A DNA stretch of 64,000 nt from Bacteroidota bacterium (lineage in GTDB: Bacteria; Bacteroidota; JABWAT01): positions 594,981-658,980 of the forward strand of contig JABWAT010000001.1 of assembly GCA_013360915.1 (NCBI GenBank), read 5' to 3'. Every line of letters begins with the position of its first letter. The first letter of the stretch is position 1. The notes beneath the pieces are model-generated. The model was not told the origin of the DNA, made no database searches, and saw only the letters and a program-made list of their open reading frames with translations. The position numbers were made by a program, and so were the translations under genes. Shown here one piece after another: positions 9,620-11,484 of this stretch.

Positions 9620-11155
9620 TCAGATCAGACGATGATAATCTTTCCTGTCCAGAGTCCAGACTCTGATTCCACAAAAGCGATCCCCTTCCGGACAGACGGG
9701 TCTGGTCTTACTGAGGATTCTTTGAGAACAGGGGGGTAATAAATAGTTTCCCAGACGAGGGTGTATATCCGAAATCTGTAATGCTTCATCCAGCGAGGCT
9801 CGCCAGATTTCTTCCTGGGCATTGTAGCACAACCGCATCTGATGTTTATGATGCAGATTCAAAAGATCTGCCGATTCGGTAAAACGGACCGAGACGGCAT
9901 TCGGCAACAAATAATCTGCAGCTTCCTGACTGGCACCAGCGCTGATCAGCGCGGCTCGTGCTGTCCATGCCAGGTCCATGGCTTCTTTGTACAGTTTTTC
10001 GGACGTTTGATCTTCAAGCACAATGGCAGGTGTGATATAATCCGGGTCATCCGTCAGATGGGTGGCCAGAATGGGCCTGGAACCTGGTGTCATCCGGTGC
10101 CGCTGATCCTGTGAATCGGCTGCATGACTGATTTTCTTCCGGAAAGTGTAATGGGCATGAACCATGGCCCGGGACACTTTTGAATGGGTGGTCAGATTCA
10201 GGTTTTCACCAAAAAGGGAATTCTTTGCCGGATTCATTACAAGGTCAATGGCATCATCATCGGAAAGGTAATCTGATGTGGCGCCATACACTTCCCTGAC
10301 CGAATCGGCAACGACGGCCTCGGCATTCTGGGTCCAGGAAACCAGTTTTGAAACCTTCCCTTCCAGAGAGGTATCGAAGGAACGGATAAAACCAGATCCA
10401 CCGGACCGTTTTGAATCGAGCAGATTCAGGTGCATGAATTCGGGGGTTTCTTCCGGCAGAAGCGGCTCCTGAATGATTTCTCCAAATTCAGGATCATGAT
10501 CCAGAAGCAGTCTTACCATGGCCTCGGTCAGGTCACGGGTTTCTGCCGGTGTATCAAACTGCCGGCAATATCTCCAGTAACGAAGCAGCGTGACTCCGCT
10601 GACCGTGTGATAGAGATAAGCAAACGTGGAAACCGGCAGGACGTAACGGGCAATTTCCTGTGTTTTTTTCTTAACATCCCGCTCTATCTTTTTCTCGTCC
10701 TTTTTACGCGCCGGGAAACGGTCCAGATAGGCACGGGTGGTTACGCCGGTCAGACTTTCATTGATCCGGTGATAGTAGTCCATCAGCCGGTCATGTGCCT
10801 TCAGATAAATGTCGAGTTGTGCGGCGTTCAGATCGGGAATATGAAACGTACCGGGTTTCACTTCAACATATCGCTGACTAACCTGTTCAGAGTTGTAAAA
10901 CGGATGGCTGTGAAGGAAACTCCAGATTGCATGACGGGATAAATCGGTGATGGCAAACTGGAAATAGGCATGCTGAAGGGTCGTATGATGACCGGCCTGA
11001 TAGGTGGAATGCGCAATATGAAAATGCTTTTCAGACACATCGCGGTCGGTTATGATACCCTTTGAAGAATAGCAGGTCCGGGCCGTGGCAATGGCATTCC
11101 GGAATGGCTGATCGAAGGATTTCATCAGACTGACTTTGGGAACCGTCCGGTGCAT
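9620..11155 (-). CDS. thyX: Double-length FAD-dependent thymidylate synthase
   Basis: 511 residues, about twice a standard ThyX. The enzyme makes dTMP from dUMP with methylene-tetrahydrofolate and FAD. Both halves show the ThyX pattern. Half 1 (about 1-210) has SRHAIWSFLHSHPFYNSEQVS and QRYVEV; its RHR motif is degenerate (LHSH) but its SQRY is kept. Half 2 (about 315-455) has DSQDQRHRMTPGSRP, with an intact RHR, and the closing RLCYNAQEEIWRA helix. A C-terminal tail has four cysteines (PPCSQR, then PVCPEGDRFCG, plus C443) that could bind metal. Long ThyX forms are known, for example in chlamydiae. It is coupled by a 1-nt overlap to the upstream ferredoxin. Confidence 0.88.
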   Translation of the reverse strand: MHRTVPKVSLMKSFDQPFRNAIATARTCYSSKGIITDRDVSEKHFHIAHSTYQAGHHTTLQHAYFQFAITDLSRHAIWSFLHSHPFYNSEQVSQRYVEVKPGTFHIPDLNAAQLDIYLKAHDRLMDYYHRINESLTGVTTRAYLDRFPARKKDEKKIERDVKKKTQEIARYVLPVSTFAYLYHTVSGVTLLRYWRYCRQFDTPAETRDLTEAMVRLLLDHDPEFGEIIQEPLLPEETPEFMHLNLLDSKRSGGSGFIRSFDTSLEGKVSKLVSWTQNAEAVVADSVREVYGATSDYLSDDDAIDLVMNPAKNSLFGENLNLTTHSKVSRAMVHAHYTFRKKISHAADSQDQRHRMTPGSRPILATHLTDDPDYITPAIVLEDQTSEKLYKEAMDLAWTARAALISAGASQEAADYLLPNAVSVRFTESADLLNLHHKHQMRLCYNAQEEIWRASLDEALQISDIHPRLGNYLLPPCSQRILSKTRPVCPEGDRFCGIRVWTLDRKDYHRLI

Positions 11156-11484
11156 CAGGCTTTCTCCGTATTCAGAAGCAAACGGGATACCACTTCACCG
11201 CCATCAATATGAGACACCATGATTTCCCTGATGTCATCAGCCGTGCGCGGTGCATACCAGACACCTTCAGGATAAATCACCATGCAGGGGCCTTGTTCGC
11301 AGTAATCGAGACAACCGGCTTTATTGGCTCTGATGATCCCTTTAAGGTCTCTGGCGGCAATCTCACTGCTGAGAGCAGCACGCAGATCGGGACTTCCCTT
11401 CTCTGCACAGGAGCCGCGCGGGTGTCCCGGTTCGCGCAGATTTTCACAAACAAAAATATGATGGCGGTACCCGGGAAGGGACAT
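11155..11484 (-). CDS. Thioredoxin-like [2Fe-2S] ferredoxin
   Basis: 109 residues. It starts MSLPGYRHHIFVCENLREPG and has four candidate cluster cysteines in the order typical of the thioredoxin-fold 2Fe-2S family: FVC and GSC near residues 13 and 26, then KAGCLDYCEQGPC near residue 60. The VIYPEGVWYAPRTADDI segment is also typical (YPEGVWY). It is a one-electron carrier. Its TGA overlaps the thyX ATG as TGATG, so the two proteins are made together. That suggests, but does not show, that it could reduce the flavin of ThyX. It lies 2 nt after the M28 peptidase gene. Confidence 0.88.
   Translation of the reverse strand: MSLPGYRHHIFVCENLREPGHPRGSCAEKGSPDLRAALSSEIAARDLKGIIRANKAGCLDYCEQGPCMVIYPEGVWYAPRTADDIREIMVSHIDGGEVVSRLLLNTEKA

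Follow-up and report, generated by a model that had tools for sequence, protein, structure and literature searches.

A double-length thyX gene with two predicted ThyX folds

The window, a 64,000-nucleotide stretch of a Bacteroidota bacterium genome, contains at positions 9620–11155 on the minus strand a single open reading frame of 511 amino acids with its ATG at 11155. The Pfam profile PF02511 (Thy1) matches the predicted protein in two stretches with a total of 161.1 bits (cut-off 24.8), and TIGR02170 (thyX) also matches in two stretches with 93.5 bits (cut-off 87.9). PF02511 is the sole Pfam match, the ThyA profile PF00303 is not matched, and within the organism's own genome both Thy1 matches lie above the cut-off. 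Long ThyX proteins carry the name ThyX in profile libraries.

The features of the locus are given below with their equivalents in M. tuberculosis (Mtb) or T. maritima ThyX, mapped from published residues by HMMER alignments and a MAFFT alignment of halves and single-chain proteins. Counts refer to the window class, an alignment of 81 sequences consisting of the window protein and the best 80 of 290 relatives.

9620..11155, minus strand: double-length ThyX gene, 511 residues plus stop (open reading frame, PF02511, TIGR02170)
10436..11155, minus strand: half 1, residues 1–240, predicted ThyX fold with the subunit-C residue set (model, structure match, alignment)
10934..10936, minus strand: R74, at the Mtb R87 position (dUMP), 81/81 (alignment)
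10868..10894, minus strand: residues 88–96, NSEQVSQRY, in which S93, R95 and Y96 correspond to Mtb S105, R107 and Y108, 81/81 (alignment)
10646..10648, minus strand: R170, at the Mtb R172 position, 81/81 (alignment)
10370..10435, minus strand: linker joining the halves, approximately residues 241–262 (secondary structure of the model)
9746..10369, minus strand: half 2, approximately residues 263–470, predicted ThyX fold with the subunit-A residue set (models, structure match, alignment)
10094..10102, minus strand: R352-H353-R354, RHR motif touching FAD and dUMP, 81/81 (alignment)
9833..9835, minus strand: R441, corresponding to Mtb R199 and T. maritima R174 (dUMP activation), 81/81 (alignment)
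9827..9829, minus strand: C443, the first of four invariant cysteines (alignment)
9623..9745, minus strand: C-terminal tail with C476, C488 and C495 (PPC...PVCPEGDRFCG) (alignment)
11155..11484, minus strand: 109-residue 2Fe-2S thioredoxin-like ferredoxin, a neighbour outside the finding (open reading frame and profile)

The stop codon of the ferredoxin-like gene and the start codon of thyX share one base (ATGA), and the ferredoxin-like product scores 99.7 bits against NF041612, under the cut-off of 150. Of 80 related loci, just 2 have the ferredoxin gene next to thyX, and the same count holds for the adjacent thioesterase-like, M28 and DUF4340 genes; no operon is therefore conserved outside the window's own family, and the ferredoxin was rejected as a general electron-donor partner on the same count.

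An AlphaFold2 model of the full-length protein (58-row alignment; mean pLDDT 88.9, pTM 0.88) contains two ThyX-like sets of elements in succession. In this predicted model half 1 (residues 3–237) matches T. maritima ThyX (1o27_D) with a Z score of 15.8 over 194 residues at 3.1 Å, and half 2, modelled separately as residues 245–511 (pLDDT 87.1, pTM 0.87), gives a predicted structure matching M. tuberculosis ThyX (2gq2_B) with a Z score of 15.1 over 190 residues at 2.3 Å. Because both halves match solved ThyX structures, the single chain is predicted to contain two ThyX folds. The initial annotation had proposed a ThyX fold for each half and had named structure prediction as the means of telling one fold from two; the prediction returned two. 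Two Thy1 matches over the cut-off, a predicted ThyX fold in both halves, and motifs that are invariant in 81 sequences together place the observation beyond chance.

Division of the active-site residues between the halves

According to a published review (PMC6514825), one active site of M. tuberculosis ThyX is formed by RHR95–97 and Arg199 from subunit A, Ser71 and Arg190 from subunit B, and Arg87, the Gln103 backbone, Ser105, Arg107 and Tyr108 from subunit C; in T. maritima numbering the catalytic residues are given as R174, S88, R90 and Y91 (PMC8316439). In the window protein, SEQVSQRY is present in half 1 and S83-H84-P85 occupies the position of RHR, and half 2 contains R352-H353-R354 and has no SxRY. 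This division holds throughout the window class. In half 1 the R87, Q103, S105, R107, Y108 and R172 positions are kept in all 81 sequences; R95 is replaced by S, A or Q, R97 by P or Q, and R199 mostly by C, A, S or V. In half 2, R95, H96, R97 and R199 are kept in 81/81, the R87 position is histidine in every sequence, R172 is lost from all 81, and S105, R107 and Y108 are lost in the 18 rows aligned there. The signature of RHR followed by SxRY inside one domain is absent from both halves of the 81 sequences, and the window class is not ordinary ThyX, since half 1 lacks RHR and half 2 lacks SxRY.

As judged by alignment, the putative A-role residues are in half 2 and the putative C-role residues are in half 1. 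The initial annotation had read half 1 as retaining S-Q-R-Y without RHR and half 2 as retaining RHR, and both readings extend to all 81 aligned sequences; the divided labour that it proposed for the halves agrees with the subunit roles described in PMC6514825.

The eight universal residues (R95, H96, R97, S105, R107, Y108, R172 and R199) form a complete set only when the two halves are combined, and in 74 single-chain ThyX proteins all eight lie within one domain. These proteins were chosen by a motif containing RHR and SxRY, such that the conservation of those residues is partly by construction; R172 and R199 were outside the selection filter and are present in 74/74. The same split is seen in 24 double-length proteins of other classes (L133, L139, L142, L159 and L194–L213), with S105, R107, Y108 and R172 in half 1 of 24/24 and R95, H96, R97 and R199 in half 2 of 24/24. 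R87 is not universal, being arginine in 33/74 single-chain proteins and in 6/24 half-1 rows of the other double classes. Neither half of the window class has Arg190, the FAD residue of subunit B (V188 and L432 stand in its place), which means that FAD must be bound in a partly different way; this position is arginine in 33 of the 74 single-chain proteins and is therefore not universal either. By our own arithmetic, with three or four independent motif units a split would arise by chance alone in about 1 in 4 to 1 in 8 cases, and the argument consequently rests on the invariance of the residues and their published roles.

Distribution, genomic context and a four-cysteine set

Scanning genome contigs gave 290 confirmed relatives, of which the best 80 are 52–75 percent identical over almost the full length and span at least a dozen phyla. 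The records of these 80 include Bacteroidetes, Acidobacteria, Ignavibacteriales, Planctomycetota, Nitrospirota, Myxococcales, Marinimicrobia, Sumerlaeota, Chloroflexi-type bacteria (Ardenticatenaceae, Anaerolineae), Verrucomicrobia, Omnitrophota and others. Within the organism's own phylum, PF02511 is found in 164 of 394 sampled genomes, and 13 genomes with two matches were inspected, yielding 11 double open reading frames and two singles with an insert. In the phylum of genome G427, 61 genomes were sampled; 50 of these match PF02511, 21 of them twice within a single long open frame. G427 is itself one of these 21 doubles, included by choice, and the sequences of 20/21 were retrieved. The initial annotation was right that long ThyX proteins are known in some lineages, and the genome samples show that they are common, not rare. 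Bacterial double ThyX enzymes with the split form a large group that is widely distributed and has been little described.

No window-class relatives were found in viral contigs, and a nucleotide search of phages gave no match. The phage double L133 has no viral relatives and the L142 class has one, which is too few to draw a history. The thymidylate synthase of Microcystis phage LMM01 (BFVD A0A7D4, 491 aa) aligns along the whole of the double model, and judging from this predicted structure it is likely to be another phage double. Two candidate doubles, L145 and L146 (genomes G089 and G156), were rejected as single ThyX proteins with an insert; the insert is intein-like with an HNH-like stretch and is located between RHR and SxRY. 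A further ThyX-like open reading frame (L125, genome G179) has KHV replacing RHR and extra residues ahead of SGRY.

In a tree of the halves, the 42 half-2 rows make up a single clade (support 0.945), but half 1 splits into two groups, 18 rows from the window class and 24 from the other classes. Because half 1 splits in this way, and because half-2 rows may be drawn together by the motif losses they share, the fusion may have arisen once or more than once.

At 3.65 Mb and 99.35 percent completeness, the organism's genome contains a thymidine kinase but no second ThyX open reading frame and no match to ThyA or DHFR_1 (PF00186). For genomes with a double ThyX more generally, 60 rows were drawn via 50 of the 80 named loci, with one genome probably counted twice, and PF00303 was matched in one of the 60 rows, with a partial match of 26 bits. 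Of the 50 genomes reached via named loci, 47 show no Thy1 hits beyond the pair within the double itself; the other three have, respectively, a third hit below the cut-off, an extra single ThyX, and an extra fragmented ThyX. As ThyA is absent from the host and all but absent from genomes of this kind, the double ThyX is very probably the de novo thymidylate synthase, a reading drawn from gene content.

The initial annotation had pointed to a cysteine tail and to a family survey as its check. The tail cysteines C476, C488 and C495 are indeed conserved in 81/81 sequences of the window class, but the set was incomplete, as C443, which had been missed, is equally invariant. The four-cysteine set, an LC..AQWE motif plus a three-cysteine tail, is also found in single-chain ThyX proteins of a Desulfovibrio phage, gut phages, a Geoalkalibacter plasmid, Acetoanaerobium and several genomes of the G427 phylum, and is thus not a feature of the fusion. 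Among the 74 single-chain proteins and 24 doubles of other classes, the tail triple is present in 14 of the 15 that have the first cysteine and in none of the 83 that do not (Fisher p 5e-16, with shared descent ignored); 23 of the 24 doubles of other classes are without the set. This all-or-none pattern suggests that the four cysteines form one site, most likely for a metal.

Proposed arrangement of the sites and comparison with other ThyX proteins

We consider it highly probable that the window protein is a flavin-dependent thymidylate synthase composed of two fused, complementarily degenerated ThyX domains that form composite sites. Two fused chains would pair as a pseudo-tetramer with two composite and two degenerate sites. 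In each productive site half 2 would act as subunit A, with RHR holding FAD and touching dUMP and with R441 activating dUMP, and half 1 would act as subunit C, with R74, S93 and R95 binding dUMP and Y96 serving as a lid. By homology with ordinary ThyX, the methylene group would pass from CH2-THF to the flavin N5 and on to dUMP. The other two sites would be without both residue sets, such that the normal reaction should not be possible there. C443, C476, C488 and C495 are the probable ligands of a structural metal beside half 2.

It is very improbable that half 2 does the catalysis by itself, with S359-R360 substituting for SxRY, and that half 1 serves just as a scaffold. R360 is found in 81/81 sequences shortly after RHR, and residue 359 is serine in 79 and threonine in two, as such a substitution would predict; however, half 2 has no equivalent of Tyr108, and half 1 keeps S105, R107, Y108 and R172 in 81/81 sequences and in 24/24 other doubles, which a scaffold would not need. 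We give equally little credence to a neofunctionalised C5-methylase that is not a thymidylate synthase. There is a parallel in Streptomyces, where, according to one report (PMC5954106), the ThyX paralogue PolB methylates UMP and dUMP, but ThyA is nearly always missing where a double ThyX is present (1/60 rows) and a further ThyX is rare, so that dTMP would be left with no known de novo source if the double did not make it.

The composite-site reading leaves room for a use of the degenerate pair, for example in binding NADPH, folate or a regulatory nucleotide through residues of its own (H82 and H84 in half 1; H344, S359 and R360 in half 2), an idea that adds to the composite-site reading and does not replace it, and that we hold only tentatively. 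H82, H84, H344, R360 and P361 are found in 81/81 sequences of the window class at the presumed degenerate site, in the places expected for subunit-A residues in half 1 and subunit-C residues in half 2, and a dead site does not account for the invariance of H82, H84, H344 and R360. This invariance may nevertheless be structural, and H84 is not common to the other double classes, in which the H96 column of half 1 contains S, E, N and other residues. As to the cysteines, an Fe-S cluster or redox disulfides in place of structural zinc is conceivable but the less favoured assignment: the four cysteines co-occur all-or-none, and in the window's own family the gene overlapping the start of thyX encodes a 2Fe-2S ferredoxin, but only two related loci of the 80 (L011 and L012) have that neighbour. 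A fuller history is offered as a speculative extension that we regard as rather doubtful as a whole. In it, the double ThyX enzymes of many phyla would be obligately composite-site: an ancient duplication would have turned a homotetramer of four sites into an assembly with two complete sites and two free to take on another function, which selection would maintain in the window class (H84, H344, R360), and half 2 would have a four-cysteine metal site at its side.

Many bacteria cannot do without ThyX, which is also a drug target. As a natural, testable case of a homo-oligomeric enzyme that has degenerated in complementary fashion, this large class, whose active site would have to be put together from two unlike halves, offers a clean route to asking whether ThyX sites act independently or in pairs. 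For annotation, a long ThyX should not be taken as a gene-calling error, and the motif alone is insufficient to call either half inactive. The four-cysteine set, with its all-or-none occurrence, indicates a possible metal site in ThyX.

Our literature search covered mainly open-access papers, and within that scope we found no description of a divided active site in ThyX or of the four-cysteine set. ThyX itself is known, and the divided form, apparently undescribed, is well supported by sequence together with the predicted fold. Griffin and co-workers reportedly provided a biochemical precedent in 2005 with the ThyX of Chlamydia trachomatis, which may be double.

The window protein shares its fold, and across its two halves the same universal residues, with the single-chain homotetrameric ThyX/FDTS enzymes such as T. 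maritima TM0449 and M. tuberculosis ThyX. It differs from them in having two domains per chain, in the division of the site residues and in the loss of Arg190, and two canonical sites are expected per assembly, compared with four in the single-chain enzymes. The other double-length classes (L139, L142, L159 and L194–L213) have the same order of halves and the same residue split, but where measured (L010) the identity to the window protein is 27 percent, and their half 1 lies apart from that of the window class in the tree. A double from a human gut phage (L133:445-1854, MT835736.1) resembles the window protein in having both the split and all four cysteines, but it is shorter, with an open frame of 470 aa, and only 24 percent identical. 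Single-chain four-cysteine ThyX proteins (L131 from a Desulfovibrio phage, L160 from a Geoalkalibacter plasmid, L164 and others) share the LC..AQWE motif and the three-cysteine tail, but unlike the window protein have RHR and SxRY in one domain. The Thermus thermophilus ThyX (6j61), which has an extra C-terminal domain, is likewise an extended ThyX, but at 270 aa it is too short for a duplication.
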